From: Ralstonia sp. TCR112
Lineage (GTDB): Bacteria; Pseudomonadota; Gammaproteobacteria; Burkholderiales; Burkholderiaceae
Direction of reading: 5' to 3'
DNA length: 64,000 nucleotides
Assembly: GCF_007997035.1 (NCBI RefSeq)
Contig: NZ_VOSS01000033.1
Coordinates: 1-64,000, forward strand
Positions within the stretch are counted from its first letter, which is position 1. The number at the start of each line of letters is the position of its first letter. Below the pieces are notes generated by a model. The model saw only the letters and a list, made by a program, of their open reading frames with translations. It made no database searches and had not been told where the DNA came from. Both the position numbers and the translations under genes were made by a program. Positions 6,576-23,299 of the stretch are shown in pieces.

Positions 6576-7622
6576 TCAATCCGGCTCTTTGTCGATAGCC
6601 GCGCCCTGGCTGCGGAATGTGCTGGGCGCCACGCCGTTCCAGCGCTTGAAAGCCTGCGAGAAGGTGGACAAGTCGGCGAAGCCGAGGCGCTCCGCGATCT
6701 CTCCCAGTGCCAGTTCACCCTCGATGAGCAGCGCCTTGGCCATCGCACAGCGCGATTCGGCCACCAACGCCCTGAAGGTGGTGCCTTCATCATGCAGCCG
6801 ACGCTTGAGCGTGCGTTCGCTGGTGTTCATCAGGCGCGCCATGCTGCTTAGCGTGGAGAGCGTGGTGCCGGGCGCAGCGCTCAAGTAGTGGCGGATCATC
6901 GCCGTCGTGCCCACGCGCAAGCGCCGCGCTTCGATGAGACGGCTGCACATCTGCTCGCACATCGAAGCCGTGAGGGGGTTGGCGTGTGGCAGCGGCCGGC
7001 TCAGGAATGATCGGTCGAACGCAAGACTGTTGACGTGCGCCGAGTATTCCGGCTCCGCAGCGAACAGCTTCCGGCGTACCGGAGAAGGCCCGCGCGCCGG
7101 CGGGGGGCTGGCCCTGAGCGTGAAACGGGACAGTGCGAAATCATCTCCCCCGATTTCCTGCAGCAAGACGGCAGCGGCGACCATGTCCCGCTCGACAACG
7201 AACCGCTTCACCTCATCGGCCAGTTCCGGCTCGCCAAAACTCAGCACGGCGAGATGGCCTTCTTCGTGATACGTGATCACGGTAAATGCGTAGGTGAGCG
7301 GCAGGAAACGCAACGCCAACGCCATGGCATCGCCGGCCGTGGCGCTGCTGATCAGGCCGTAACCCCACACCCCATACGCCGAAAAGTGGTAGCGCAGCCC
7401 AAGCTCCAACCCCAGCCCCGGCGGATGCTTCAACAGGCGCAGCAGATTGCTGACCACGCGAAGCTCCTGCGTGGCTGTCACTTCCATATTCGGGTCGGAC
7501 AGTTGGGCCAGCGACAGCTGCGTGCCGGCCAGCAGCTTTGCCGGCGAAAGACCGCGCTCCTGGCCAAAGTCGACCAGCAAGCGCGCGCTGGCCGGGCTCC
7601 GAGTGAACTCCCAGAAACGCAT
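6576..7622 (-). CDS. AraC-family transcriptional regulator, VirS-like
   Basis: The 348-residue protein has an N-terminal arabinose-binding-like domain of the OruR/VirS type (about residues 20-210) and a C-terminal AraC DNA-binding domain with two helix-turn-helix motifs. The second contains LGEIAERLGFADLSTFSQAFKRW. I chose the ATG at 7622 (MRFWEFTRSP), where homology to the family begins; the frame stays open further upstream but without a better ribosome site. The gene is divergent from the GMC oxidoreductase at 7873, with about 250 bases between them, so it most likely activates the 7873-15406 cluster. The divergent AraC plus monooxygenase arrangement matches virS-mymA of Mycobacterium tuberculosis. 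Confidence 0.85.
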   Translation of the reverse strand: MRFWEFTRSPASARLLVDFGQERGLSPAKLLAGTQLSLAQLSDPNMEVTATQELRVVSNLLRLLKHPPGLGLELGLRYHFSAYGVWGYGLISSATAGDAMALALRFLPLTYAFTVITYHEEGHLAVLSFGEPELADEVKRFVVERDMVAAAVLLQEIGGDDFALSRFTLRASPPPARGPSPVRRKLFAAEPEYSAHVNSLAFDRSFLSRPLPHANPLTASMCEQMCSRLIEARRLRVGTTAMIRHYLSAAPGTTLSTLSSMARLMNTSERTLKRRLHDEGTTFRALVAESRCAMAKALLIEGELALGEIAERLGFADLSTFSQAFKRWNGVAPSTFRSQGAAIDKEPD

Positions 7623-7645
7623 ACGGAGAAACCCTTGGGACGTGC

Positions 7646-7660
7646 TATTTGGCCCAAATA
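7646..7660. promoter_or_regulatory. Palindrome in the AraC/GMC divergent intergenic region
   Basis: TATTTGG-C-CCAAATA is a perfect inverted repeat with a one-base centre, 24 bases upstream of the chosen AraC start. Its position fits an operator for the regulator or the RNA polymerase region of its own promoter. No binding evidence is available, and AraC proteins often use direct rather than inverted repeats. Confidence 0.35.
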
Positions 7661-7872
7661 CTAAAACAGTTGTCCCCGCGCGCCATTGGTGTTTTCCCAT
7701 GACGGAAGCAACATCAACCGCATCCGATAGGTCGCCCCAGCAGTGTTGCGCCATCCGCTCCGAGGAAGCCGCAGATCTTCCCGAGCGCGGGGCGCCGGCC
7801 TTGCACGTCGGATCGCCAAGCAGCTGTCGGCTTACAGCGCCTGGCTCAAAAAAACAGTGTGGAGACAACAAC

Positions 7873-9555
7873 ATGGGCAACATCTTCGACTACGTCATTG
7901 TGGGCGGCGGGTCCGCCGGCAGCGTCGTGGCAGGGCGACTCACCGAAGACCGGCAGGTGACGGTGTGCGTTCTGGAGGCCGGCGGGAGCGGGAGTGAACC
8001 CGTCATCAATGTCCCGACCGGCGCCGTGGCGATGCTGCCCACCAAGCTCAACAACTGGGCATTCGAGACCGTGCCCCAGCCCGGACTGGGCGGGCGCAGG
8101 GGATACCAACCGCGTGGCAGGGCACTGGGAGGCTCATCGGCGATCAACGCGATGGTCTACATACGCGGGCACCGCAATGACTACGACGACTGGGCTGCGC
8201 GCGGCAATGTCGGTTGGTCCTATGACGACGTGCTGCCGTATTTCCGGCTCAGCGAGCACAACGAGCGGCTCGACAACGCATGGCATGGCCGCGACGGCCC
8301 GCTCTGGGTCAGCGACCTGCGCTCGGACAACCCCTTTCAAGCGCGCTACCTGGAAGCCGCCCGCCAAGCGGGGCTGCCGCTGACGGATGACTTCAACGGG
8401 GCAGACCAGGAAGGCGTCGGCATTTACCAGGTGACGCAAAAGCACGGCGAGCGGTGGAGCGCAGCACGCGCCTACCTGCTGCCGCACATCGGGCGGCGCG
8501 ACAACCTGAGCGTGAAAACGCATGCCCACGTCCAGCGCATCCTGTTCGAGGGCAACCGCGCCGTGGCCGTTGAAATGCTGCAAGGCGGCCAGCTTCACAC
8601 GGTGCGAGCACGCCGCGAAGTGGTGCTGGCCGCCGGGGCGTTTCAGACGCCCCAGTTGTTGATGCTCTCCGGCATCGGCCCCTCCCATGAACTGGATCGC
8701 CTCGGCATCCAGACGCGTGCGCACCTGCCGGGAGTGGGCCAGAACCTGCAAGACCATCCGGACTTCATCTTCGGGTACCGGGCGCGCAGCCTCGACACGA
8801 TGGGCGTGTCGATCGGTGGCGGCCTGCGCATGCTGAAGGCGATCCGACGATTCCGTCGCGAACGGCGAGGCGCGCTCACGTCGAACTTCGCCGAAGGCGG
8901 CGGCTTTCTGAAGACACGCGCCGGGCTCGCGATGCCCGATATCCAGCTTCATTTTGTCGTCGCGCTGGTGGACGACCATGCGCGGTCGTTTCACCTGGGC
9001 CATGGGCTGTCTTGCCATGTCTGCCTGCTGCGTCCCCGCAGCCGCGGCTCCGTCACCCTGCAGAGCAACAACGCCCAGGATGCACCGCTGATCGACCCCG
9101 CGTTCTTTCAGGACCCGCAGGATCTCGAAGACATGGTGGCGGGCTTCAAGCTCACGCGCAGGCTGATGCAGGCGCCAGCGCTGGCGGAGTGGATCACGAA
9201 GGATGTATTCACCGCCAATGTGAACACCGACGACGAGATTCGCGAGGTCCTGCGGCAGCGCACCGACACCGTCTATCACCCGGTCGGCACATGCCGGATG
9301 GGTAACGACGCTCACGCCGTCGTGGACCCTCAACTGCGCGTGCGCGGTCTGCAGGGCCTGCGCATCGTCGACGCCTCCGTCATGCCCACGCTCATCGGCG
9401 GAAACACCAATGCGCCGACGATCATGATTGCCGAGAAGGCGGTCGACATGATGCGGGGCCGCAGCCGGGTGCAGCCGGTGCTCCAGGAAGTTCGCTCCAT
9501 GTCCACGCAATTGAAGGTCGATGCCTTGGAGGAAGCCCGCCATGTATTCAGCTAA
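7873..9555 (+). CDS. GMC-family FAD-dependent alcohol/choline dehydrogenase-like oxidoreductase
   Basis: This 560-residue flavoprotein should oxidise an alcohol to an aldehyde or ketone. The N-terminus carries the FAD-binding GGGSAGSVVA loop (about residues 11-20). The GMC signature follows (PRGRALGGSSAINAMVYIRG, about residues 77-96). The C-terminal half has the active-site pair: His469 in YHPVGTCRMG and Asn511 in GGNTNAPT. The ATG at 7873 follows GGAGACAACAAC; the frame is open far upstream but that part overlaps the AraC promoter region. It is the first gene of a co-oriented cluster and overlaps the next gene by 14 bases, which suggests translational coupling. The substrate is not known; medium-chain or terpenoid alcohols would fit the neighbours. 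Confidence 0.9.
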   Translation: MGNIFDYVIVGGGSAGSVVAGRLTEDRQVTVCVLEAGGSGSEPVINVPTGAVAMLPTKLNNWAFETVPQPGLGGRRGYQPRGRALGGSSAINAMVYIRGHRNDYDDWAARGNVGWSYDDVLPYFRLSEHNERLDNAWHGRDGPLWVSDLRSDNPFQARYLEAARQAGLPLTDDFNGADQEGVGIYQVTQKHGERWSAARAYLLPHIGRRDNLSVKTHAHVQRILFEGNRAVAVEMLQGGQLHTVRARREVVLAAGAFQTPQLLMLSGIGPSHELDRLGIQTRAHLPGVGQNLQDHPDFIFGYRARSLDTMGVSIGGGLRMLKAIRRFRRERRGALTSNFAEGGGFLKTRAGLAMPDIQLHFVVALVDDHARSFHLGHGLSCHVCLLRPRSRGSVTLQSNNAQDAPLIDPAFFQDPQDLEDMVAGFKLTRRLMQAPALAEWITKDVFTANVNTDDEIREVLRQRTDTVYHPVGTCRMGNDAHAVVDPQLRVRGLQGLRIVDASVMPTLIGGNTNAPTIMIAEKAVDMMRGRSRVQPVLQEVRSMSTQLKVDALEEARHVFS

Positions 9556-12025
9556 CCCGAGCCGCGCTTCCGACGCGGCCACTCCGCACGCAGCCATCAT
9601 CATCGGATCGGGCTTTGCCGGCATTGGCATGGCCGTGGCGTTCAAGCGAGCCGGGCTGCACGACTTCGTCATCCTGGAACGGGCACATGACGTTGGCGGC
9701 GTCTGGCGCGACAACAGTTATCCGGGGGCCGCGTGTGACGTGCCCTCACACTTGTATTCCTTCTCTTTCGAGCCCAACCCGAACTGGTCTCGCACGTTCG
9801 CTCCCCAAGCGGAAATCCATGCGTACCTGCGGCATTGCGCGCGCAAATACGCCGTCGAGCCGCACATCAGGTTTGGCGCAGACGTCGCGCGTGCGCAGTA
9901 TGACGAACAGCGTTCGGTCTGGCGGGTCACGCTACAGGACGGGACAACGCTCAGCGCGACGCTGCTCATCAGCGGCACCGGCCAGTTGAGCCGCCCCGCA
10001 TTCCCGCGACTGCCGGGCATGGAAACCTTCAAGGGGCACACCTTCCACTCCGCGCACTGGGATCACGACTACGCGCTGCCGGGCAAGCGCGTGGCGGTGG
10101 TGGGAACGGGCGCTTCGGCCATCCAGTTCGTGCCGGCCATCGCCGATGCGGTGCAGCACCTCACGGTGTTCCAGCGCTCACCGGCCTACATCATGCCGCG
10201 CCCGGATCGTGCTTATCGGCCGTGGGAGAAGGCAGTGTTCCGCGCGCTGCCATGGGCGATGAAGTTGCATCGCGCAATGATCTACACGCGCTATGAGTCT
10301 CGCGCGCTGGCGTTTACGCGCTTCAAGGGGCTGATGCGGCTGGCGGTGGGCGTGCCGTTCCAACGGCTGCTCTCAAAGCAGGTTCCCGACGCCGCGCTGC
10401 GCGCCAAGCTCAAGCCCGACTACCCCATCGGTTGCAAGCGCATTCTGCTTTCAAGCGAATACCTCGCCGCCATGAGCAAGCCGAACGTTCACCTTGTGAC
10501 CGAAGGCATCGGCAGGGTGACCCCAAACGGCATCGAAACCGTTGATGGCACGCACCATCAGGTCGACGCCATCATCTACGGCACAGGCTTTGCCGCCACC
10601 GAATTTCTCTCGCCCATGCACATCACCGGCCGCGCGGGTCTGGACCTGAACGATGCGTGGCGGCGTGGTGCAGAGGCCTACCTTGGCTTGACCGTGCCGG
10701 GTTTCCCCAACTTCTTCATGCTGTACGGCCCGAATACGAATCTTGGGCACAACTCCATCGTTTACATGCTGGAGAGCCAGATCGCCCACGTCATCCGCTG
10801 TTGCAAGGCGATGGCCGCCACCCATACGACCAGCATCGAAACGGATGCACGCCGCTATCGGCGTTTCAACGCACACATTCAGCAGCGCCTGGCCAAATCC
10901 GTCTGGAGCGGATGCAAGAGCTGGTACGTGGATGCGAGCGGGCACAACAGCACCAATTGGCCTGGCTTCACGTTGACCTATCGCCGGCTGACCCTGTTTT
11001 CGAGCCTGCAGGCATACCGCCTGACCAGAGCGCTGCCAGGGCAGGTGGGGCCAACCGCCGGCGTTGTCGTGGCCGAACCGCAGGGGTGGTGGGAGGCGGC
11101 CAACGCATGGTTCCTGCGCAACTTCCTGCGCATCGGTTTTCGCTCGCTCATCGGGCCGCCTTTCGGTGTTGCCGTTCAGCGCAGCGTCGTGCGCGTGCTG
11201 TCTCCGCTCATGCCGGGCGTGAGCGGAGTGATCCGCTACCGGGACTTGGCCGGCAACGTGCCGGTGGAAGTCGTTGCGCCCAAGCGCGGCGAGACCGACG
11301 GCGCCATGCTCTACCTGCATGGAGGCGCCTTCTGCCTCGGAGGCCCGGGCACGCACCGCAGCATCACGACGCGCCTGGCGGTCGAATCGGGCATGCCGGT
11401 GTTCGTTCCCGACTACCGGCTCGCGCCCGAGCATCGGTACCCTGCCGCGCTGCACGATGCGCTGGCGTGCTACGACGCGCTGCGCAGCCAGGGCTATGCC
11501 GCGGAGAAGATCGTCGTCGCAGGCGATTCGGCCGGCGGGGCGCTGGCCCTGGCATTGGCGCTTTCACTCCGGGAGCGCGGCGATACCGCTCCTGCTGGCC
11601 TGCTGTTGATCTCACCCGTGACCGACGCCACGCTGAGCGGCGACACGCTCGTGTCTCAGCGGACCCACGATCCGATGATCCGCCGCGGTTGGCTCGAACA
11701 AGGACTGCGCTGGTATCAGGCACCCGCCGCAGCGGCCGAGCACATGCCGCTCAAGGTCGACTTACGTGGGCTGCCGCCCATGCTGATCCAAGTTGGCGAA
11801 GATGAAGTGCTGGGCTCGGATGCCACCCGGCTGGCCGACCACGCTGCGGCCTGCGGCGTGCCGTGCCGCATCGAGGTGCATGCTGCGCGCTGGCATGTGT
11901 TCCACCTTCAGTCGTTTTATCTGCGCTCCGCAGTCGACGCCCTCCGCACGCTTGCCGATTTTGCCCGCGAGCGGATAGCGAGCGGGGCAAGCGCTGTCCG
12001 GGCCGACGTGCCGCCGCTTGGATGA
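9542..12025 (+). CDS. Fusion of Baeyer-Villiger-type flavin monooxygenase and HSL-family alpha/beta hydrolase
   Basis: The 827-residue product joins two enzymes. Residues 1 to about 495 form a class B flavin monooxygenase, with FAD motif GSGFAG at 22-27, the Baeyer-Villiger fingerprint FKGHTFHSAHWD at 163-174, and an NADPH-binding GTGASA loop near 188. Residues from about 560 form a hormone-sensitive-lipase-type esterase: oxyanion motif HGGAF (His593), nucleophile Ser663 in GDSAGG, an acid in GEDEVL, and a catalytic His in ARWHVFHL. The pair could oxidise a ketone to an ester and hydrolyse it in one polypeptide. In mycobacteria the matching proteins MymA and LipR are separate. The ATG at 9542 has GGAGGAA seven bases upstream. 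The reading frame is unbroken across the join. Confidence 0.9.
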   Translation: MYSANPSRASDAATPHAAIIIGSGFAGIGMAVAFKRAGLHDFVILERAHDVGGVWRDNSYPGAACDVPSHLYSFSFEPNPNWSRTFAPQAEIHAYLRHCARKYAVEPHIRFGADVARAQYDEQRSVWRVTLQDGTTLSATLLISGTGQLSRPAFPRLPGMETFKGHTFHSAHWDHDYALPGKRVAVVGTGASAIQFVPAIADAVQHLTVFQRSPAYIMPRPDRAYRPWEKAVFRALPWAMKLHRAMIYTRYESRALAFTRFKGLMRLAVGVPFQRLLSKQVPDAALRAKLKPDYPIGCKRILLSSEYLAAMSKPNVHLVTEGIGRVTPNGIETVDGTHHQVDAIIYGTGFAATEFLSPMHITGRAGLDLNDAWRRGAEAYLGLTVPGFPNFFMLYGPNTNLGHNSIVYMLESQIAHVIRCCKAMAATHTTSIETDARRYRRFNAHIQQRLAKSVWSGCKSWYVDASGHNSTNWPGFTLTYRRLTLFSSLQAYRLTRALPGQVGPTAGVVVAEPQGWWEAANAWFLRNFLRIGFRSLIGPPFGVAVQRSVVRVLSPLMPGVSGVIRYRDLAGNVPVEVVAPKRGETDGAMLYLHGGAFCLGGPGTHRSITTRLAVESGMPVFVPDYRLAPEHRYPAALHDALACYDALRSQGYAAEKIVVAGDSAGGALALALALSLRERGDTAPAGLLLISPVTDATLSGDTLVSQRTHDPMIRRGWLEQGLRWYQAPAAAAEHMPLKVDLRGLPPMLIQVGEDEVLGSDATRLADHAAACGVPCRIEVHAARWHVFHLQSFYLRSAVDALRTLADFARERIASGASAVRADVPPLG

Positions 12026-12031
12026 CCGCAC

Positions 12032-12748
12032 ATGAGGCGTATTACACCCAAGCCGAGACATGGCGGTCCGATTTCCGGCGACCAGGCAAGCCAGACGCGC
12101 GACCGCATCGTGGCTTACGCGTTGAAGGCCTTCAACGAGATCGGTGTGGCGAACGTCACAACAACCGGCCTCTGTGCGGGGCTCGACATGAGCCCCGGCC
12201 ATTTTTACTACTACTTCCGCGGTAAGGAAGCCGTCGTGCAGCACCTCTTCGATCGCTTCGAGCGCGACATGCAGGCACAACTCCGTGGTCGTTTGGGCGG
12301 CGCCCTGTCCGGCGAACGCCTGTCCGAACGCCTATCCGAGCGCCTTCTGAACGTGCTCGATTGCGTGTGGGAATACCGTTTTCTTTACCGCGACATGAAC
12401 AGGCTGATTGCATCAAGCCGGACGCTCGAGCAGGGGTTCAAGGAACTGGTCGACCAGAGCATGCGGGCCCTGAATGCCGCGCTCTGCTCAGATCGATCCG
12501 AGCATCAGAACGGACAGCGCTTGATGCAACGGGAAACCGCTTGCCGCTGCGCGGCCATCGTCGCGACGTATTGGCTGTCATTCCAGTTCTTGCAGAACGC
12601 CAGGCAATTCAATGATCGGAACGTCATGGCGCGCTCGGTTCACGCGGCCCGTGACCAGATACTTGCATTGCTACAGCCGTTCCTGAGAGATCGCCAGACG
12701 ATGCCTGCGGGGCAATGTTCATACATCGACTTATTGGAGCAGCAATGA
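12032..12748 (+). CDS. TetR-family transcriptional regulator
   Basis: The 238-residue protein has an N-terminal TetR helix-turn-helix (IGVANVTTTGLCAGLDMSPGHFYYYFRGKE, split here as about residues 36-65) and a C-terminal domain that probably binds a ligand. It begins six bases after the monooxygenase-hydrolase fusion and its stop codon overlaps the next ATG (ATGA at 12745-12748), so it is embedded in the operon. It probably gives feedback control of this cluster, alongside the AraC regulator at 7622. The ligand is unknown, although a product of the pathway is a reasonable guess. Confidence 0.85.
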   Translation: MRRITPKPRHGGPISGDQASQTRDRIVAYALKAFNEIGVANVTTTGLCAGLDMSPGHFYYYFRGKEAVVQHLFDRFERDMQAQLRGRLGGALSGERLSERLSERLLNVLDCVWEYRFLYRDMNRLIASSRTLEQGFKELVDQSMRALNAALCSDRSEHQNGQRLMQRETACRCAAIVATYWLSFQFLQNARQFNDRNVMARSVHAARDQILALLQPFLRDRQTMPAGQCSYIDLLEQQ

Positions 12749-13670
12749 CGCAACGAGCGAACGTAGAGTTCTCTTCTGGCCAGCGAGGAGAGCGGTGCCG
12801 GGGCTGGCTTTATGAACCTGAGGGGAATGGGCCGTTCCCCGTCATCGTCATGGCCCACGGCCTGGGCGGCGTCAAAGAGATGCGCCTGGATGCCTTTGCC
12901 GAACGCTTTTCCGACGCCGGCTATGCATGCCTGGTCTTCGACTACCGCAATTTCGGGGCGAGCGAGGGGGCCCCCCGGCAGTTGCTGGACATCGGCCAAC
13001 AGCTGGAAGACTGGTCCAGTGCAATCGCCTTTGCACGGCTGCAGCCCAGCCTGATGCGCAGCAAGATCGTCCTGTGGGGTACGTCCTTCGGCGGCGGCCA
13101 TGTCATTGCCTCCGCCGCGCGCGACCAGAATGTGGCGGCGGCCATTGCTCAATGTCCTTTCACTGACGGCATCGCCTCGGCCCTTGCGATGGATTTGCGC
13201 AGCAGCTTCAAAGTGACGGCGATGGCCATGGTCGACATGCTGCGCGGCCTGGTCGGCATGACGCCTTTGATGGTGGCCACGTCCGGCCCACCACATTCCG
13301 CTGCGCTCATGACCGCGCCCGACGCCCATGGCGGCTATCTGGCCCTGGTGCCGAGCGGAGTGTCCTTCCGCAACCACGTCGCAGCGCGCTTCGCGCTGAA
13401 CATCCTGCGGTACCGTCCCGGCCGCGCGCGGCAAAGGTGTCCTGCCCGATTCTGTTCTGCATCTGCGAGACCGACTCCGTCGCGCCCGCCGGCCCAACCC
13501 GGCGCTATGCCAAAAAGGCGCCGCGCGGCGAAGTCCGTCTGTATCGGGCTGGCCATTTCGACATCTACGTCGGCGAAGCCTTCGAACGGGTGGTGGCTGA
13601 CCAGCTCGATTTTCTCAAGCGCCATGTCCCCGTAAAAGGACGAGCCATGTCGAAAAAGGAGACCACATGA
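12745..13670 (+). pseudogene. Alpha/beta hydrolase, apparent frameshift near 13430
   Basis: The product resembles dienelactone-hydrolase or acetyl-xylan-esterase-like alpha/beta hydrolases. The N-terminal part has the HGLGG oxyanion region and the nucleophile Ser in GTSFGG. Near 13430 the frame shifts. The rest continues one frame over (SCPILFCICETDSVAP, then AGHFDIYVG) and supplies the catalytic Asp and His. As written, the first frame runs to 13635 with nonsense sequence and lacks two of the three catalytic residues. Adding one G in the GCGCGCGG stretch gives a 308-residue protein ending at 13670, which overlaps the next start. GGAG precedes the ATG at 12745. The gene is probably intact in the organism. 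Confidence 0.75.
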
Positions 13671-14524
13671 TGACTTACGACTTGAACGACAAGGTGGTGC
13701 TGATCACCGGTGCGGCGGGCGGCATCGGCGCCGCGACCGCACGTGAGCTCTATGCCCGTGGTGCGAGCTTGGTGCTGACCGATATGCAGCAAACCGCGGT
13801 GGACAAACTTGCAGAAGAGTTCACCCCATCCCGCGTGCTACCTGTGGCGCTTGACGTCACCAACGCCGCGGCGGCGAAGGCTGTCGTCCAGCAGACGATC
13901 CAACGCTTCGAGCGCCTCGATGTGGTTTTTGCCAACGCTGGCATTTCGTGGCGTAGCGGTGCCTCGACCATTGCCAATTGCGACGAGGCCGAGTTCGAAA
14001 AAATCGTAGAAGTGGATTTGCTTGGCGTCTGGCGCACGGTTCGCGCGGCGCTGCCCGAGATCATTCGCAACAAGGGCCAAGTCCTTGTCACGTCATCCGC
14101 ATACGCCTTTGTCAATGGCATGGCGAATGCACCTTATGCCGCGTCGAAGGCAGGGGTGGAAATGCTCACGCGCTGCCTGAGAGCGGAGTTCGCATATACC
14201 GGCGCAACGGCCAGCGTCGTTTACCCCGGTTGGACGGCGACAGCCATCGCCAAGGTGGCCTTCGGCGGAAACGCAACCGTGACAAAGATGAATGAGGTCG
14301 GATTTCCAGGGTCGCTGCGTCGGGCCATTCCTCCCGAGCAGGTAGCACGTGCAATCGCGAAAGGTCTGCAATGCCGCCGGCCGCGCATCTATGCGCCGTG
14401 GCGGTGGGTTCCGTTCTCGCTCTTGCGCGGGGTCTTCGGTGTATTGACCGATGCCATGCTGAGTCGACACAGAGAAATGCACGCCCTGATCCAGGAACTC
14501 GAGGCGGAATCAAAGCACGGATAA
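13667..14524 (+). CDS. Short-chain dehydrogenase/reductase (SDR), first of a pair
   Basis: The 285-residue protein is a classical SDR: cofactor motif TGAAGGIG near residue 15, NAG motif (FANAGISW), and the catalytic Tyr-Lys pair in YAASKAG. The C-terminal extension (RPRIYAPWRWVPFSLLRG) with a hydrophobic stretch is like that of SadH-type SDRs found in mycobacterial mymA operons. It should oxidise or reduce a hydroxyl/keto group with NAD(P). Its ATG overlaps the stop of the preceding hydrolase, and the next SDR starts three bases after its stop, so all are likely co-translated. Confidence 0.88.
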   Translation: MMTYDLNDKVVLITGAAGGIGAATARELYARGASLVLTDMQQTAVDKLAEEFTPSRVLPVALDVTNAAAAKAVVQQTIQRFERLDVVFANAGISWRSGASTIANCDEAEFEKIVEVDLLGVWRTVRAALPEIIRNKGQVLVTSSAYAFVNGMANAPYAASKAGVEMLTRCLRAEFAYTGATASVVYPGWTATAIAKVAFGGNATVTKMNEVGFPGSLRRAIPPEQVARAIAKGLQCRRPRIYAPWRWVPFSLLRGVFGVLTDAMLSRHREMHALIQELEAESKHG

Positions 14525-14527
14525 ACC

Positions 14528-15406
14528 ATGCCGAAATATGATTTGACCGATCGAGTCGTGGCCATCACCGGCTCCACTGGCGGCTTGGGATCCGCGCTTG
14601 CGGCGGCGTTGCGCGCCAAGGGCGCCCGCCTCGCATTGTTCGACCTGGACCTGGCCCAGGTCGAGGCGCAAGCAAAGACCTTGGGCGATGTCTCCCGAGC
14701 CCGCGGCTGGGCCACCAACGTGCGCAGCATGGAGAGCCTGGAGGCAGCCATGGCGGAAGCCGCGGCGCATTTCGGCAATATCGACGTGGTCATCGCCAAC
14801 GCAGGCATCGACACCGTGGCGCCCATGGCTACGCTCAACCCGGAGGCATTCGAACGCGTCATCGACGTCAACCTCAACGGCGTCTGGCGCACCTTCCGCG
14901 CCGGGCTGCCCTACGTGCAGAAGCGGCAGGGCTACCTCATGGGTATTTCGTCGATGGCTGCCTTCGTCCATTCGCCGCTCCAAGCCTCCTACACCGCCAG
15001 CAAGGCAGGCGTTTGGGCCCTGTGCGATAGCGTGCGGCTGGAGTTGCAGCACCTGGGAGTCGGCGTCGGCAGCGTGCATCCGACCTTTTTCCCCACACCG
15101 ATGATGGACGACGTCGTGGCCGATCCGGCGGGCCGTGCCTTGTGGGGCGGAAATGACAAAGGCCTTTGGAAAATGGTTTCGCGCGAATCCGTCGTGCGCG
15201 ACATTGTGGCCGGCATCGAGCAGCGCGCGGACATGGTGGTCGTGCCCAAGCGAAATACCCTCATCGCGAAAGCGCCAGGACTCTTCAGGCGCTTTATCGA
15301 GCGCGCCGGCTTCCGAGGCAAAAACATCCAGCAAGCCATCGAGCTGGCATCGTCCACCGGATGGAACTTGCCCGCCGAAGGTCATGGCCGTCATTCCGGC
15401 AAATGA
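14528..15406 (+). CDS. Short-chain dehydrogenase/reductase (SDR), second of a pair
   Basis: This 292-residue SDR shows the cofactor motif TGSTGGLG near residue 15, the IANAGID motif, Ser in GISSMAAF and the catalytic YTASKAG. It shares the same general layout as the SDR just upstream and may have arisen by duplication, although the two sequences have diverged a lot. It is the last recognisable gene of the cluster that begins at 7873. The substrate is probably a lipid-like or cyclic alcohol, by context only. Confidence 0.87.
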   Translation: MPKYDLTDRVVAITGSTGGLGSALAAALRAKGARLALFDLDLAQVEAQAKTLGDVSRARGWATNVRSMESLEAAMAEAAAHFGNIDVVIANAGIDTVAPMATLNPEAFERVIDVNLNGVWRTFRAGLPYVQKRQGYLMGISSMAAFVHSPLQASYTASKAGVWALCDSVRLELQHLGVGVGSVHPTFFPTPMMDDVVADPAGRALWGGNDKGLWKMVSRESVVRDIVAGIEQRADMVVVPKRNTLIAKAPGLFRRFIERAGFRGKNIQQAIELASSTGWNLPAEGHGRHSGK

Positions 15407-15786
15407 CGACGTATCGCATGACTTCGAAGCGGGCTTGGTAGACCGCATGCGGAATGCGCTCAGTCACACCGGGTAGCGCAAGCTGCGCGTGCCACGATGC
15501 GAACAGAGATGACATGGCCGCAACTCACCGGGCGAGTTCAAGCGGCGCATTGACGAGTGCACGCTTGCCCGGAGGGGCAAGGGCGCGGTGTCGCGTGTTT
15601 TGGCCTGATCCACAAAATAAAGTCCGTGGGAGAGGGTGCTGCCAACCCATTGATCTATAAAGGGCGTCAATGCAAAAAAAGGGCCAACCGCTTCAACCGG
15701 CCCTGCCGAATGCTGTTTGTGCTGATCGACGGAGCTTATGAGCCGTCCATCGCCCAGGCATTGCAGGCGCGGCAGGCGGAGGAAGC
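15407..15786. other. Intergenic region with remnant sequence
   Basis: The 380 bases after the SDR pair contain no complete gene. The end (about 15711-15790) reads in frame as LFVLIDGAYEPSIAQALQA and stops in an ATGA overlap with the FAH remnant at 15787. That arrangement looks like the tail of a lost upstream partner gene. A terminator-like hairpin at 15673-15704 interrupts it. Confidence 0.4.
15673..15704 (-). terminator. Possible intrinsic terminator, minus strand
   Basis: Read on the minus strand, AGGGCC (15704-15699) pairs with GGCCCT (15685-15680) and is followed by a run of seven T. It would stop transcription coming from the TetR gene at 16021-16689, but about 320 bases downstream of that stop. 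It may have been left here by a rearrangement. Confidence 0.45.
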
Positions 15787-15996
15787 ATGAAATTCGCCAC
15801 GCTTGCGCATACGGCGACCGACGGCCGACTGGTACTCGTGTCGCTTGACCTGCACCACGCGGTGGATGTCGCCCACATTGCCCGGTCGCTCATCGATGCA
15901 CTCGAGCGCTGGGACGACGTGACCCCGGCATTGCAAGCGCGCTACGACGCGCAGCCCGCCTTCATTGTTGAAAACAGCCCCTTTCGGGCGTTTTGA
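15787..15996 (+). pseudogene. Truncated N-terminus of a fumarylacetoacetate-hydrolase-family protein
   Basis: The 69 residues (beginning MKFATLAHTATDGRLVLVSL) resemble the N-terminal cap of FAH-family hydrolases, which usually run to 320-340 residues. The metal-binding catalytic domain is absent. The homology fades around residue 57, after which the frame runs into foreign sequence and stops just before the convergent TetR gene. This is a deletion remnant rather than a simple frameshift, since the following DNA encodes an unrelated gene. Confidence 0.55.
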
Positions 15997-16020
15997 AACC
16001 GTCTCTTAGGGCAGGGCGAT

Positions 16021-16689
16021 TCAATCGGCCAGAGTGCGTCTTTCTTTGGTTTGTGCCGACCGCCCTCGTTTGGCCCTGGTTCCGGATTTGGCGGTTCCAT
16101 ATGCCGCCATGAACACCTCGACTGCACGCGCGATGATCTCCGATATGCGGGCGCGGCTGATGTCCACAGGCATGCCGAACAGGCACAGTTCCACGCATTC
16201 CGCCTCATACAGAGCATGTAGATGCGCTGCGGCGACGTCCGGGTTGGCACGCTTTAGCTTGCCGGCTTCCATGGCCTCGGCGATGAACTCGGTCAACATA
16301 CCCCAGCCGATCTTGGGGCCGCGTTCATAGAAGGCGCACCCCAGGTCGGATCGATTGCCTTCGCCGATGGCCAGACGGCGGATCGCAAGAATGGACGGCT
16401 GTAAGATCGCATTCAGGTAGTGCTCGCCAAACACGATAAGCGTGTCGGCGATCGGACCAGTCGCTTTCAACTGCGCAAAGGCGTCGCGAATCTCGTCGGC
16501 GGCGGTGCCACTCATGATCTCCGCGAACATCTCTTCTTTTGAGCTGAAATAGTTGTACAGCGTCGCCTTGGATGCGCCCGAGCGGGCCGCGATATCTGAC
16601 ATCGAGGCCTGATCGAAACCGACCTCCATGAACACGCGAAAAGCGGCGTCAACAATGGCTTGCCGTTTCTCTTCTGTCTTTTTGCGCAT
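16021..16689 (-). CDS. TetR/AcrR-family transcriptional regulator
   Basis: The 222-residue protein has a TetR DNA-binding domain at the N-terminus (helices including FMEVGFDQASMSDIAARSG, then KATLYNYFSSKEEMF) and an AcrR-like C-terminal domain. The start at 16689 (MRKKTEEKRQ) follows AGGAA at suitable spacing; upstream codons in the same frame have no site. It lies 88 bases downstream of the pump-linked TetR gene on the same strand. It may act on the pump or on a lost neighbour; the sequence does not decide. Confidence 0.82.
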   Translation of the reverse strand: MRKKTEEKRQAIVDAAFRVFMEVGFDQASMSDIAARSGASKATLYNYFSSKEEMFAEIMSGTAADEIRDAFAQLKATGPIADTLIVFGEHYLNAILQPSILAIRRLAIGEGNRSDLGCAFYERGPKIGWGMLTEFIAEAMEAGKLKRANPDVAAAHLHALYEAECVELCLFGMPVDISRARISEIIARAVEVFMAAYGTAKSGTRAKRGRSAQTKERRTLAD

Positions 16690-16777
16690 GCATGTTTTCC
16701 TGATCCTGTGCCGCATCACCGCAGCGAAAACGAGAGTGTATGCCATCGACCACGCCGCAATGATGCAAAGACCAGCG

Positions 16778-17419
16778 TCAGCCGGCTTCCCCAGGCGCGG
16801 TCTGATGGGTGTTCTCTATGCCGTCAAAGAACGCCTGCAGACATGGCTGGATATCAATGTGCTCGCCATCGGCAACCGCGCCGGCGTGGTCCCACAACAG
16901 TCCGATGCCAACGGCATGCAGGCAGCGTGCGGCTGCCTCCGGTGTCATGTCGGCACGGAGTTGATTGCGCCTGCATGCGGCGCGCATCACGTAGTCTAGG
17001 TTTGCGATGGCGCGCGCCTTGATGCGAGCGATGTGGTCGATCGCTGGCTGAGGCCAGGGGGCGCAATCCGGTTGCCGCAGGACAAGGCGCAACACTGGCC
17101 ACTGCCTGCTGTCCCGCGCGGATTGCGTCAACTGTGCAAGCAGTTGTGCATGAAGGTGCTGCAAGGGCCGCGGATGCACGGCATAGCCCCACAGACGGTC
17201 GCCGGGGTCCAACGGCCAGCGCAGGCCAACAAGGACGGCTGCCACAAGCGCCGGCTTGCCGCGGAAATGCCCGTACACCGCTCCGCGTGTGACGCCCGCT
17301 CGCACCGCAACATCTTCCAGGGTGGTGGCATGGACACCGTGCTGGCAGAACACCGCAATGGCGGCATCGATCACGCGCTGGCGGGTCTGCGCTGCGCCAG
17401 CCACAGTTCGTCTCACCAT
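16778..17419 (-). CDS. TetR/AcrR-family repressor of the adjacent RND pump
   Basis: The 213-residue protein carries the typical AcrR/TtgR-type DNA-binding head (TTLEDVAVRAGVTRGAVYGHF) and a C-terminal drug-binding domain. It is the last gene of the pump operon, 12 bases after the outer-membrane channel gene, so pump and repressor would be co-transcribed and autoregulated. In most acrAB loci the repressor is divergent, so this tail position is somewhat unusual. Drug binding should release repression of the operon that starts at 23299. Confidence 0.85.
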   Translation of the reverse strand: MVRRTVAGAAQTRQRVIDAAIAVFCQHGVHATTLEDVAVRAGVTRGAVYGHFRGKPALVAAVLVGLRWPLDPGDRLWGYAVHPRPLQHLHAQLLAQLTQSARDSRQWPVLRLVLRQPDCAPWPQPAIDHIARIKARAIANLDYVMRAACRRNQLRADMTPEAAARCLHAVGIGLLWDHAGAVADGEHIDIQPCLQAFFDGIENTHQTAPGEAG

Positions 17420-17431
17420 CGATGCGATGCC

Positions 17432-18928
17432 TCAGACGCCTGAGGCCCGTGGCGTTGTGGTTGCAGCCGATGCGGGTGTACCGGTGTTCTCTACCCAGCC
17501 GCCGCCAAGTGTCTTATAGAACGTAGCCAGGTTGGTGAAGCGCGACAGCCGTGTGCTGATCAAGTTTTGCTGCGCCGTATAGAGCGAGCGCTGGGCATCC
17601 AACACGTTGAGGTAACTGTCGACGCCGCGCTTGAAGCGTGCGGTGGCAAGGACGTAGCTCTCCGCTGTGGCGTCTACCAGCGATTGCTGCGCATCGAGCT
17701 GCCGGCCCAGCGTGCTGCGCTGCGCCAGCGCATCGGACACTTCGCGGAAGGCAGTCTGGATGGCCTTCTCGTACTGCGCCACAGCAATGTCGCGGTTTGT
17801 CTTGGCGATGTCCAGATTGGCGCGATTGGCTCCGCCGTCAAAGATGGGCAACGAGATCTGCGGCCCGAAGCTCCACGCTCCCGAGCCTGCCTTGAACAGG
17901 CTTCCCAGGCTGGCGCTGGAAGTGCCTGCCGATGCTGTGAGACTGATGCTGGGGAAGAACGCCGCCCGTGCAGCACCGATGTTTGCATTGGCTGCCTTCA
18001 AGTCATGCTCGGCCTGCAGGATGTCAGGCCGTCGCTGCAGCAGGTCAGACGACAAGCCGGGCGGAATGGTGGCCAGTACGCTGCCGGCAGCCGCCGATGC
18101 ATCGGGCAGCGATGTCGGCAGCAACTCCACGGGCACATCGGCACCCACCAGCAGCACCAGTGCGTTGCGGTCCTGCTCGACCTGAGCCGTATAGCGCTCT
18201 ACGTCCACGCGAGCGCTGTCCACGCTTGTCTGCGACTGGCGCAGCGTCAGCTTGGACACGGTGCCCAGTTCATAACTGCGCTGGTTGAGCTGGTAAGTGT
18301 TGCTTTGGCTGGCAAGGGTGTCCTGCGCTAACTTGAGCTGGTCCTGGTCTGCGGCAAGGGTCAGATACGCGGTGGCGACCTCCGCAATCAGGCTGATCTG
18401 GCTGCTGCGACGCGCCTCTGCGGTGGAAAGGTACTGCTCCAGCGCCTGCGCGCTGAGGCTGCGTACGCGCCCAAAGAAGTCCAGCTCGTAGGCGCTGAAA
18501 CCCAACGTGGCGCTGTAGCTGTGTGCCACCAGCGGCTGTCCGATGCCAGAGAGATCGGCAGGTGTACGGCTGGCACTCTCGCTGCCACTGGCCTTGACGG
18601 AAGGAAAGAGCGCAGCGTCCTGCACACGATACTGCGCGCGGGCTTTCTCGATATTGAGCACAGCGACGCGCAGATCCCGGTTATTCGCCAAGGACAGCTC
18701 AATGACCCGTTGCAGCTGTGGATCGGTAAAGACTTGGCGCCAGCCGATCTGGGCTACCGGCGAGGCAGTCTTGTCGTCGGGGTTGTCTGCAGAAGGCGTT
18801 GCACTGGCGACATCGGCAAAGGCGGCGGGCACAGGGGACGCCGGCTGTTGGTAGGCCGGCATCAGCGTGCAGCTAGTCAGCATGGCAGCCAACGGGAGCA
18901 GCGTGGAGGAAAACGGAAAGCGGATCAT
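17432..18928 (-). CDS. NodT/OprM-family outer-membrane efflux lipoprotein
   Basis: This 498-residue protein is the outer-membrane channel of a tripartite pump. A signal peptide ends in the lipobox LTSC (about residues 17-20), so the mature protein is lipidated. Two outer-membrane efflux (OEP) repeats follow, with the conserved [12 protein letters not shown] and [14 protein letters not shown] segments. The length matches OprM/CusC relatives. It starts 11 bases after the RND transporter gene, and completes an MFP-RND-OMF operon. Confidence 0.92.
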
Positions 18929-18939
18929 CTCGAACGTCC

Positions 18940-21900
18940 TTACGAGGCAGCGGCGTCGGCCGGTTGGGCATGCGCTGGCGCCGTAGCCGAGCCGCCCTTG
19001 AACAGTCCCCGCACCAGCACAAAGAACAGCGGCACGAAAAAGATGGCAAGCACTGTGCCGGACAACATGCCGCCGATGACGGCGACACCGAGCGCGTGCT
19101 GTGCACCAGCACCGGCACCCGTGCCCGTCACCATTGGCACCACACCGAGGATGAACGCTAGGGATGTCATCAGAATCGGCCTCAGGCGCATGCGCACAGC
19201 GGCGATAGCGGCATCGACCAGGCTCCTGCCGTGCTCGTTGAGCTCCTTGGCGAATTCAACGATGAGGATGGCGTTCTTGCACGCCAGTCCGATGGTGGTC
19301 AGCAGGCCAACCTGGAAATACACGTCGTTCATCTTCCAGGTGAGCACGGCACCCAGCAGCGCACCGAACACGCCCAGTGGCACCACCATGATCACCGAGA
19401 AGGGGATCGCCCAGCTTTCGTACAGCGCGGCCAGACACAGGAACACGATGAGAATCGACAGCGTATAAAGCAGGGTGGTTTGCCCAGTGGAGGCCTTCTC
19501 TTGCATCGACAGACCCGTCCACGAATAGCCGATGCCGGCCGGCAGTTTTGCGACGGCATCTTCGACGATGGCCAGCGCTTCGCCGCTGGAGGCTTTGCTT
19601 GGCATGCCCATGCCCAGGATTTCCATGGACGGCACGCCGTTGTAGCGCTCCAGGCGCGGGGAACCCGACGTCCAGTCCACCTTGGCGAACGCCGTGAACG
19701 GGACCATGGTGCCGGCGCTATTGCGCACGTACCACTTATCGATATCGCCCGGGTTCATGCGGTAGGGCGCATCGGCTTGCAGCATGACTTTCTTGACACG
19801 GCCCCGGTCGATGAAGTCGTTCACGTAGCTACTGCCCCAAGCTGTGGCGAGGGTCGTGTTGATGTCGGAGATGGAAACACCGAGCGTTTCGGCCTTGTGG
19901 GCATCGATCTTCAGTTGAAACTCGGGCGTGTCTTCCTGCCCGTTGGGGCGTACGGCTACCAGGCGTGGGTCTTTGGATAGCGTACCTAGCAACTGGTTAC
20001 GCGCCTGCATCAGCGCGTCGTGGCCGAGGTTTGCGCGGTCTTGCAGCATCAGATCAAAGCCGGTGGCGTTGCCCAGTTCTGCCACGGCGGGCGGCGCAAA
20101 AGCGAACACCCGGGCATCGCGCAGCGTGGCAAAGAAACCGAACGCCTTGTCCACGACACCGTTGACGCTGAGCGCCTCGCCCTTGCGCTCGTTCCACGGG
20201 CGCAGCTTGACGAAGGCAAAGCCCATGTTCTGGCCACTGCCGGCAAAGCTGAAACCCGCCACGGAGAACACGCCTGAAACCGCTTCTTTCTGGTCAACCA
20301 GGAAGTGGTGTTCCACTTGGCGCAGCACGTCTTCGGTGCGCGCGTTGGTTGCGCCCGGCGGCAGTTGCGCCAGGACGAACAGCGAGCCCTGGTCCTCATC
20401 CGGCAGGAAGCCGACGGGCAGCTTCATGAAGCCAACCACGACCATCGCGAGCAACACGCCGTAGATCATCATGTAGCGCCAGCCCTTGCCCAGCATGTGG
20501 CGCACGATGCCCTGATACCGCTGATTGCCGCGGTCGAAGGTCCGGTTGAACCAGCCGAAGAAGCCGGTGGTGGCCTGGACGTGGCCTTTCTCAACGGGCT
20601 TGAGCAGGGTGGCACATAAGGCAGGGGTGAGCACCAGCGCGACCAGCACCGACAGCGTCATCGCCGACACGATGGTGATCGAGAACTGCCGGTAGATCAC
20701 ACCGGTCGAGCCCTTGAAGAACGCCATCGGTACGAACACTGCGGCCAGCACGAGTGCAACGCCGACCAGCGCGCCCGTGATCTGCCCCATCGACTTGCGC
20801 GTTGCCTCCTTGGGTGAGAGTCCTTCCTCACTCATCACACGCTCGACGTTCTCCACCACCACGATGGCATCGTCGACCAACAGGCCGATGGCCAGCACCA
20901 TGGCAAACATAGTCAGCGTGTTGATGGTGAAACCGCACGCAGCGAGCACGCCAAACGTGCCAAGCAACACCACCGGCACTGCGATGGTCGGGATCACCGT
21001 GGCGCGGAAGTTCTGCAGGAACAGGTACATCACCAGGAACACCAGCACGATGGCCTCAATCAGCGTGCGCACCACCTCTTCGATCGAGATGCGGACGAAT
21101 GGCGTGGTGTCGTATGGCTTCTGCACCTTCATGCCTGGCGGGAAGAAGCGCTCAAGTTCGGCCACGCGGGCGTCGACCGCCTTGACGGTATCGAGTGCGT
21201 TGGCGCCCGTCGCCAGCTTGATCGCCAGGCCGGCGGCCGGCTTGCCGTTGTAGCGCCCGACCGTGTTGTAGCTCTCGCTTCCCAGCTCAATGCGCGCGAC
21301 GTCGCGCAGGCGCACCTGAGAGCCATCGGTCTGCGTGCGCAGCAGGATGTTGCCGAACTCATCTACGGTCTTGAGGCGCGTTTGCGAGGTGATGGTTGCG
21401 TTGATCTGCTGGCCTGCCGATGCCGGCATGGCACCCAGTTGGCCGGCAGAGATCTGCGCGTTTTGCGCCTGGATGGCGTTCTTTACATCCAGCGGCGTCA
21501 GGCTGAAGTTGGACAGCTTGTTGGGGTCCAGCCAGATGCGCATGGCGTACTGCGAGCCGAACAGCGTCGTGTCGCCCACACCCTCCACCCGGCTGATGGC
21601 GTCCTGCACGTTGGCGGCCACATAGTCGGACAGGTCGGAACCGTTCATGCTGCCGTCTTCTGAAGTGAAGGCAAGCACGTTCAGGAAGTTTGTGGCGGAT
21701 TTGGCGACCTGCACACCTTGCTGTTGCACCTCCTGCGGCAACAGCGGTGTGGCCAGCGCGAGCTTGTTCTGCACTTGCACCTGAGCGGTATCCGGATCCG
21801 TGCCGTTTTCGAACGTCAGCGTAATGGTGGCGGTGCCGGAAGACTCGCTGGTGGACGCCATGTAGCTGAGGTGATCCAGCCCCTTCATCTTTTGCTCGAT

Positions 21901-22091
21901 GATCTGGGTGACGGTGTCTTCCAGCGTTTTGGCTGATGCGCCCGGGTATGTGGCCGTGATCGACACGCCGGCGGTGCGATGCTCGGATACTGCGCGATGG
22001 GCAACGTGGCAATGGCCAACGCACCCGCCAGCATCACGATGATGGCCAACACCCACGCAAAGATGGGGCGGTCGATAAAGAAGCGTGCCAT
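18940..22091 (-). pseudogene. RND (HAE1/AcrB-type) efflux transporter, apparent frameshift near 21966
   Basis: The protein is the inner-membrane proton-driven pump of an AcrAB-OprM-type system. It starts at 22091 ([18 protein letters not shown]). It has the family's paired halves, the TM4 motif [16 protein letters not shown] with the proton-relay Asp pair, and a typical C-terminus. After about 40 residues (QYPSIAPPA) the frame breaks; the expected continuation [10 protein letters not shown] lies in the next frame. Adding one base restores a 1050-residue protein, exactly the usual length. The break falls in a GCCGGCG stretch and matches the other frameshifts in this window, so it is probably a sequencing error. 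Confidence 0.88.
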
Positions 22092-22105
22092 GGTGGTGTC
22101 CTGAA

Positions 22106-23299
22106 TCAGTTGGCGGCCACGGTCGCCGGCTTGGTGGTCGCCGGCGTAGGCGCCTTCGTTGTCCACGGCGTTGTCTTGACCTCCGCGCCAGGCACGGCAC
22201 GCGGCAAACCGTCCACCACCAGTTGATCGCCCGCGCGCAGGCCGGTGCGTACGAGCCATTGGTCGCCGACGGTGCGGTCGGTTTCCAAGGCACGCCGCTG
22301 CAGCTTGTGGTCGGCTCCCACCACATAGGCGAAGGGCTTACCTGTGCTGTCGCGTCCTACGGCCTGCTGTGGTACGAGGACTGCCTCATCCTTCACGCCT
22401 TCGGCCAGCACCGCACGCACGTACATGCCGGGGAGCAGCACGGCATTCGGGTTGGGGAACACGGCGCGCAGGGTCACCGAGCCGGTGTTCTGGTCGACCG
22501 TGACATCGGAAAACTCGAGCTTGCCTTCCAGCGGATAGGTGCTGCCGTCTTCCAGCTGCAACCGCACTGTAGCTGCAGTGGCGCCCGTCTTTTGGAGGTC
22601 GCCTCGCGCCATGGCCTGCTTCAGGCGCAGCAGTGCGGCGCTGGATTGCGTCACATCAACGTAGATGGGATCGAGTTGCTGAATCGTGGCCATCGCGGTG
22701 GTCTGGTTGGCCGTTACCAAGGCGCCTGGTGTCACGCTCGATTTACCGATGCGCCCGGAAATGGGCGCATCCACGCGGGCGTAAGCCAGGTTGATGCGAC
22801 TAGTCTCTACGTTGGCGCGGGCGGCTGCCACATCGGCTTCGCCCTGGGCCAGGGCGGCCGCGGCATCGTCGTAGTCCTGCTGGCTCACTGCCTGGATGGC
22901 CACGAGCTCTTTGTAGCGCTCGGCCTTCAGGCGCGTGGTCTTGAGGTTGGCCTGCGCCTTCGCCAGCGCGGCCACATTGCTGTCGTAAGTGGCCTGGTAA
23001 GTGGCGGGGTCGATCTGGTAGAGCGGCTCGCCCGCCTTGACGTCGCTGCCTTCACGGAACTTGCGTGCCTTGATGATGCCGTTGACCTGCGGACGCACAT
23101 CTGCAATCAGAAACGGAACGGTACGGCCGGGCAACTCTGTACTGAGTGCCACGCGCTGGGATTGCACAGTCATCACGCCCATGGTTGGCGTGCCTTCTGC
23201 GGGGGGCGGGCCACCGGGGGGCTTGCCGCACGCAGCAAGTAGAGACGCTGCCGCAAGCGCGGCCAGAAACGGGGGCATAGCAGATGGGATCGGGCGCAT
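22106..23299 (-). CDS. Membrane-fusion (adaptor) lipoprotein of an RND pump
   Basis: The 397-residue periplasmic adaptor links the RND pump to the outer-membrane channel. Its signal peptide ends in a lipobox (SLLAACGK). It shows the biotinyl-lipoyl-like halves, a coiled-coil hairpin between about residues 100 and 170, and the beta-barrel region ending in [11 protein letters not shown], all typical of AcrA/MexA. The start at 23299 follows AGGAA; a longer upstream frame is open but lacks a signal-peptide-like beginning. It is the first gene of the operon. Confidence 0.92.

Follow-up and report, generated by a model that had tools for sequence, protein, structure and literature searches.

A fused Baeyer-Villiger monooxygenase and esterase in a putative ketone-cleaving gene module of Ralstonia sp. 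TCR112

The window analysed here, a stretch of 64,000 nucleotides from Ralstonia sp. TCR112 (contig NZ_VOSS01000033.1; host genome of 5.4 Mb), carries a gene cluster in which a Baeyer-Villiger monooxygenase (BVMO) and an esterase of the hormone-sensitive lipase (HSL) type are encoded in a single frame. This fusion gene follows a gene for an alcohol dehydrogenase/oxidase of the GMC family, and both face a divergent gene for an AraC-family regulator. A previous sequence-only reading of this DNA had named these genes and four more behind them, and all the genes and domains it named are present, on the strands it gave. The fusion, the genes and sites ahead of it and its two domains are located as follows in the window:

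6576..7622, minus strand: AraC-family regulator, 348 aa from the start suggested by homologues, in an open reading frame (ORF) open to 7883; Pfam PF12625 and PF12833 (Arabinose_bd and HTH_18)
7649..7676, plus strand: probable operator, direct repeat TTGGCCC-N14-TTGTCCC with a 21-bp period, from a matrix of 26 sites
7686..7714, plus strand: TTGGTG-N17-CAACAT, a possible promoter for the operon of GMC gene and fusion
7873..9555, plus strand: GMC-family alcohol dehydrogenase/oxidase, 560 aa; PF00732/PF05199, NF002550 at 609 bits (cut-off 605)
9521..12025, plus strand: BVMO-esterase fusion protein, 834 aa in one open frame (827 aa from 9542)
9578..11029, plus strand: Type I BVMO domain, residues 20-503 of the fusion
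11075..11983, plus strand: HSL-type esterase domain, residues 519-821 of the fusion

The fusion protein and its distribution

Judged by its motifs, the fusion is a complete Type I BVMO joined to a complete HSL-type esterase, with the signatures of both enzymes intact. Type I BVMOs are recognized by the fingerprint FxGxxxHxxxW(P/D), which is found at residue 170 of the fusion (FKGHTFHSAHWD) and in its strict form in 61 of 67 fusions, and by a second one, [A/G]GxWxxxx[F/Y]P[G/M]xxxD, present at residue 59 (GGVWRDNSYPGAACD). The same half contains two Rossmann motifs (GSGFAG at 29 and GTGASA at 195) and a K306-R307 pair, which aligns with the KR of the Thermocrispum cyclohexanone monooxygenase and is invariant in 44 fusions. 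The esterase half keeps the HGG oxyanion motif at 600, the GDSAG nucleophile motif at 668 and a triad of Ser670, Asp767 and His792, invariant in the 44 fusion sequences as well; it scores 180 bits with Pfam PF07859 (cut-off 25) and 217 bits with the NCBIfam model GESAG_HSLs, under the cut-off of 430. In the predicted structure of the whole protein (pTM 0.84), both folds are complete and connected by a join of about 15 residues. The BVMO half has the fold of phenylacetone and cyclohexanone monooxygenases, the folds of both halves being assigned through structure comparison with VIA-align only. As for the length of the chain, the 827 residues of the sequence-only reading are counted from the second ATG, at residue 8 of the 834-aa frame, and this later start is favoured by a copy with 93% identity (L031), which shows a TGA at residue 3 and is open from residue 8.

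The fusion is found in many other genomes. Among the 80 genome loci listed as matches for the fusion query, 67 encode it as a single open frame of 780 aa or longer. These loci supply the further fusions of this kind whose existence the sequence-only reading had left to be searched for, and they rule out that a missed stop, a frameshift or an assembly error created the fused frame, or that the fusion is peculiar to the strain of the window. The remaining 13 loci include two that are fused as well (L031, where the start is an artefact of reading and the protein has 827 aa, and L042, with 778 aa), two that start or stop at a contig edge (L065 and L093), one from Sphingomonas with a broken frame (L109) and eight with the BVMO alone (L101, L102, L104-L108 and L110). 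Greedy ORF calling in these GC-rich loci produced shadow ORFs and missed a member of the fusion cluster at its expected place in 16 of the 80, so the counts were taken from tblastn and stop-to-stop reading.

The nearest named copies among the matches listed belong to Ralstonia pickettii SSH4 and other Ralstonia-type records (89-93% identity); hosts of intact fusions also include Burkholderia, Cupriavidus, Pseudomonas, Massilia, Solimonas, Hydrocarboniphaga and Rhizobium. In Burkholderia glumae, the fusion is plasmid-borne and annotated generically as 'alpha/beta hydrolase fold domain-containing protein'. The fusion occurs in 6 of the 16 genomes searched within the genus of the window, and both halves match at E = 0 in 32 of 299 genomes of the family, the window's own counted; several of the family matches were counted with one or two stops, yet their frames are open for at least 847 aa. 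Across the phylum, 398 genomes show the fusion in the window's own genome only, and a BVMO match at E up to 1e-150 in 23 (own included). Among the papers listed from the open-licence part of PMC, none stood out as describing a natural BVMO-esterase fusion, although an earlier notice may exist; the fused gene is real, apparently little described and probably a tool of degradation.

Origin of the fusion

The origin of the fusion can be followed in a tree of 83 BVMO domains, which comprises the window, 43 of the 67 fused loci (the others being at least 88% identical to one kept) and further loci of at least 45% identity, and leaves out broken, duplicate or near-duplicate ones (L103, L109, L114, L120, L121, L125, L126 and L152). 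A single clade (support 100/100) holds the 44 fusions together with nine rows with a BVMO only, and the label 'fused' costs six changes on the tree. Seven of these nine rows are nested among fused rows of the Aquabacterium type, which points to a loss of the esterase half there, and the other two (L101 and L130) branch near the clade's base without a settled position. The Aquabacterium-type loci without an esterase half are L102, L104-L108 and L110, and their sister strains retain one. Another alpha/beta hydrolase gene lies nearby downstream in six of the eight BVMO-alone loci (six of the seven of the Aquabacterium type). One of the esterase-less loci, L104, also contains a second BVMO ORF (51%) and, directly after it, an overlapping esterase ORF (38%), at 15198-17689.

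A different clade (100/98) is made up of nine loci of the same GTDB class in which both enzymes are encoded by separate genes (L131, L132, L133, L135, L136, L138, L139, L140 and L144). Their BVMOs are 52-56% and their esterases 43-49% identical to the halves of the fusion, the gene order is the same and, in all nine, the BVMO gene ends exactly 17 nt after an ATG that belongs to another frame. The pair is adjoined in eight of the nine loci by an AraC gene (38-41% identity), upstream of which a TTGNCC repeat with a 21-bp period was seen by eye, with an operator sequence that differs; no GMC match was found in the 1.5-kb flanks of these loci. Most likely, the fusion would have arisen from a BVMO/esterase pair overlapping by 17 nt, as in these relatives.

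A fusion in the reverse order is encoded at 3704-6205 of L118, a plasmid of Deinococcus radiodurans, and occurs in 14 plasmid records with an identity of 99% or above. Its product (WP_010884002.1, 833 aa) starts with the esterase (residues 101-309) and ends with the BVMO, which is 29% identical to that of the window and 51% identical to a Mycobacteroides plasmid BVMO, and this closer relationship indicates a separate event of fusion. A word search of open-licence PMC for Deinococcus radiodurans together with arylesterase and monoxygenase found no paper. Adjacent separate pairs are present on the four plasmids inspected, with the hydrolase ahead of the BVMO in three and behind it in one. Further fusions were also sought among BVMO paralogues with long ORFs and were rejected, since the ORFs in L119-L127, with lengths of 513-553 aa, encode a plain BVMO.

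Regulator, operator and neighbouring genes

The ORF of the AraC regulator is over-extended, and the gene spans about 6576-7622. This shorter start is preferred because many homologues outside the close Ralstonia align only from ORF residue 88, although in the close Ralstonia the DNA is similar further upstream too. With the GMC gene starting at about 7873, the shortened gene leaves an intergenic region of 250 bases (7623-7872), where the putative operator is found. A search of 27 hand-picked representatives out of 61 upstream regions with an AraC of at least 45% identity, which are related and not independent sequences, detected the 9-mer TGGCCCAAA in 18 of them, whereas in 20 shuffles no 9-mer reached a count above 5. 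The consensus of the 26-site matrix, TTGGCCCAAATAATAAAGCAATTGTCCC, contains the half-site TTGNCCC twice at a distance of 21 bp, as is usual for AraC-family proteins. The matrix, built without L080, scores 29-50 at its training sites, compared with a maximum of 8.6 in five shuffled windows; a lower cut of 12 adds weak matches in L090 (17.7) and L142 (18.9), both without a main site, and in L080 (15.8). Regulator and site go together in the 80 loci (25 of which belonged to the training set): 56 have both, 21 neither, three the AraC only (L080, L083 and L109) and none the site only. The AraC protein would be expected to bind the direct repeat at 7649-7676.

In the genome of the window, the operator is the single match at up to three mismatches, so the regulon probably comprises the GMC-fusion operon and perhaps the AraC gene itself. 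Among 150 genomes of the family, 22 contain operator matches at up to two mismatches, with 24 sites in total. Fourteen of these sites belong to fusion-bearing genomes, of which the sample has 14; apart from the site of the window, all of them (13) adjoin an AraC relative, and 12 of the 13 have a GMC or aldehyde dehydrogenase gene in the 1.5-kb flank. Out of the ten sites in other genomes, four adjoin an AraC paralogue (46-49%) and six show no match to module proteins. The former four (L168, L181, L185 and L186) carry, around 1501-1528, a near-identical operator by a paralogous AraC gene, with an alpha/beta hydrolase gene across the operator in L168, L181 and L186, which may be regarded as a sister regulatory module, and L075 shows the operator twice (9146 and 9915). 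Downstream of the operator, promoter-like offsets are partly conserved (T+37 in 26 of 26 loci; A+61, A+64 and T+65 in 25; other bases less), and a scan with the sigma-70 consensus found no promoter.

The neighbours of the fusion were counted with tblastn in 65 fused loci with both flanks, a set that keeps the frame-broken L109 and omits 15 of the 80 (short flanks or no esterase match). An AraC gene (at least 40% identity) is nearby in 48 loci, in every one on the strand opposite to the fusion. The GMC gene occurs in 37 loci, 32 of them with the gene at most 200 nt upstream of the fusion match, and an aldehyde dehydrogenase gene accompanies it in 10. A second hydrolase is found in six loci and an SDR (short-chain dehydrogenase/reductase) of another type also in six. 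The B. glumae plasmid shows the order AraC, divergent from aldehyde dehydrogenase, GMC and fusion, and the best solved matches of the GMC protein are an alcohol oxidase, a chloramphenicol-inactivating oxidoreductase and a choline dehydrogenase. The core of the putative module is taken as the AraC gene, the operator, often the GMC gene, the fusion and sometimes the aldehyde dehydrogenase gene. Of 20 scanned neighbour representatives, five were without a Pfam match, perhaps as shadow ORFs, and in L089 (12562-13983) another flavin monooxygenase gene, with a family member in L047, adjoins the fusion on the opposite strand.

Four genes follow the fusion in the window:

12032..12748, plus strand: TetR-family regulator, PF13972; not core
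12715..13635, plus strand: alpha/beta hydrolase, C-terminal part frame-disrupted in this assembly; not core
13667..14524, plus strand: SDR 1, PF00106; not core
14528..15406, plus strand: SDR 2, PF00106; not core

The sequence-only reading had included them in the set, a view that their distribution does not sustain, and the idea of all seven genes as one functional unit was rejected on the same grounds. TetR matches next to the fusion are confined to loci near the window's own lineage, and the hydrolase of the window has no match after the fusion in other loci. Its close relatives, found in six others of 200 family genomes, adjoin a relative of SDR 2 in all six and of SDR 1 in three (1.5-kb flanks); two genomes (G141 and G093) hold both the fusion and a hydrolase relative, on different contigs. 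The end of the hydrolase is encoded in another frame, the six relatives read through in one piece, and the break could be either a real lesion or a sequencing error. After the cluster, at 16021-22326, two TetR-type genes and an apparent multidrug efflux operon (as read by eye) lie on the opposite strand.

Proposed function and comparison with known systems

We consider it likely that the locus is a regulated catabolic module, in which a ketone would be cleaved to an acid and an alcohol and the alcohol then oxidized. The AraC protein would sense a small effector, bind the repeat and activate the GMC-fusion operon. The N-terminal BVMO half would convert the ketone into an ester with NADPH and oxygen, and the C-terminal half would split this ester into a carboxylic acid and an alcohol, so that the net effect would be the cut of the C-C bond beside the carbonyl by one protein. 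Finally, the GMC enzyme, in some relatives with the aldehyde dehydrogenase, would most likely oxidize the released alcohol, allowing both fragments to enter fatty-acid or central metabolism. Both reactions and the order in which they follow each other are inferred, as are an ester shared between them and the role of the GMC enzyme; a medium or long aliphatic ketone is our guess for the substrate. Comparable sequences of steps appear in two studies: for 2-ketones in Acinetobacter, a conversion to esters and then to alcohol and acid is described, after which alcohol and aldehyde dehydrogenases would act (PMC12753306), and a BVMO followed by an esterase, leading from ketone to ester to alcohol and acid, has been proposed for long alkanes in Thalassolituus (PMC6304351).

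Two separate fusions of opposite order, in Proteobacteria and Deinococcus, together with the adjacent pairs on four plasmids, point to a coupled function. A bolder proposal, which we regard as rather doubtful, would be a single-chain ketone-cleaving machine with active sites fixed so that the ester passes between them. Coupling would have been selected at least twice, in opposite orders and here from genes overlapping by 17 nt, and the AraC protein and its TTGGCCC-N14-TTGTCCC operator would constitute a dedicated sensor for one class of ketones.

Several observations weigh against a catabolic module built on the fusion. Some Aquabacterium do without the esterase half, so that the fusion is not indispensable. 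Of the 67 fusions, 6 do not have the FxGxxxHxxxW[PD] motif in its strict form, and related flavin monooxygenases can oxidize sulfur or nitrogen as well. The separate-gene clade stands beside the fused one with weak support (84/29), so it is above all identity and gene order that suggest a sister relation. Moreover, AraC, GMC, aldehyde dehydrogenase and extra hydrolase are all missing from 12 of the 65 fused loci, and these neighbours are therefore not universal.

The alternative that survives best, a real possibility though short of an even chance, is that the GMC enzyme acts first and oxidizes a secondary alcohol to the ketone used by the fusion, the module being the lower half of a pathway for secondary alcohols or for subterminal alkane oxidation. 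The sequence-only reading had assigned it the role of supplying the ketone or aldehyde, and the frequent position of its gene just upstream of the fusion agrees with it. However, the aldehyde dehydrogenase near the GMC gene points to primary alcohols, which fits the oxidation of the product alcohol at least equally, and primary alcohols are also the substrates of alcohol oxidase and the chloramphenicol-inactivating oxidoreductase, two of its best solved relatives. In the published subterminal pathway, the step from secondary alcohol to ketone does precede the BVMO (PMC6304351). One GMC enzyme could act on both types of alcohol. It is unlikely, on the other hand, that the module serves to detoxify a plant or fungal ketone or lactone and not for growth: the titles of host records include soil, root and rice-associated bacteria, some copies are on plasmids and the operator occurs once in the genome, but the alcohol and aldehyde dehydrogenases suggest a further use of the products. 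A turnover or modification of cell-envelope lipids, non-catabolic and as reported for the VirS/MymA locus, whose layout is equal (PMC10272862, PMC13234193), is improbable given the weak match between the regulators, the lack of an acyl-CoA ligase among the genes of 6576-15406, the neighbouring alcohol and aldehyde dehydrogenases and the patchy presence in 6 of 16 genomes of the genus.

For BVMOs, the substrates used in nature are in large part unknown (PMC4498894). A BVMO tied to an esterase with its own regulator and operator makes this question directly testable with an operator-driven reporter, whose inducer would hint at the substrate. Artificial BVMO fusions have been built by biocatalysis groups (e.g. 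PMC5624969), and a natural one whose halves are linked by a short join, with relatives split into two genes and a counterpart of reverse order, offers a ready model for the question of channelling in fusions.

Among known systems, the cluster resembles the VirS/MymA/LipR locus of Mycobacterium tuberculosis in its layout. Both have an AraC-type regulator with a ligand-binding domain, a BVMO gene and an esterase gene, which agrees with the divergent arrangement that the sequence-only reading had recognized; the regulator itself matches VirS weakly (40 bits, confined to ORF residues 233-428). VirS (Rv3082c) activates Rv3083-Rv3089, including MymA, LipR and FadD13 (PMC10272862, in excerpt). These are separate genes in Mycobacterium, with FadD13 and others in addition, whereas in the window the two enzymes are fused and a search of the genes in 6576-15406 found no acyl-CoA ligase as a FadD13 counterpart. 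The closest layout to VirS/MymA/LipR/FadD13 encountered is a set on a Paracoccus albus plasmid (L188, 3886-9339), with an AraC gene divergent from genes for a BVMO of another lineage, an alpha/beta hydrolase and a long-chain acyl-CoA ligase.

The sad cluster of Acinetobacter is similar as described: SadD, a BVMO, and the esterases SadA and SadB turn 2-ketones into alcohol and acetate (PMC12753306, in excerpt), as separate proteins. Phenylacetone and cyclohexanone monooxygenases, on one side, and the HSL esterases EstD11, E40 and EstE5, on the other, share the fold and motifs of each half, although their structures were solved as stand-alone enzymes. Closer to the fusion, the nine separate-gene pairs differ from it in having two genes in different frames with the 17-nt overlap, and the Deinococcus protein equally joins an HSL esterase and a BVMO in one chain, with the opposite domain order and a BVMO of another lineage.

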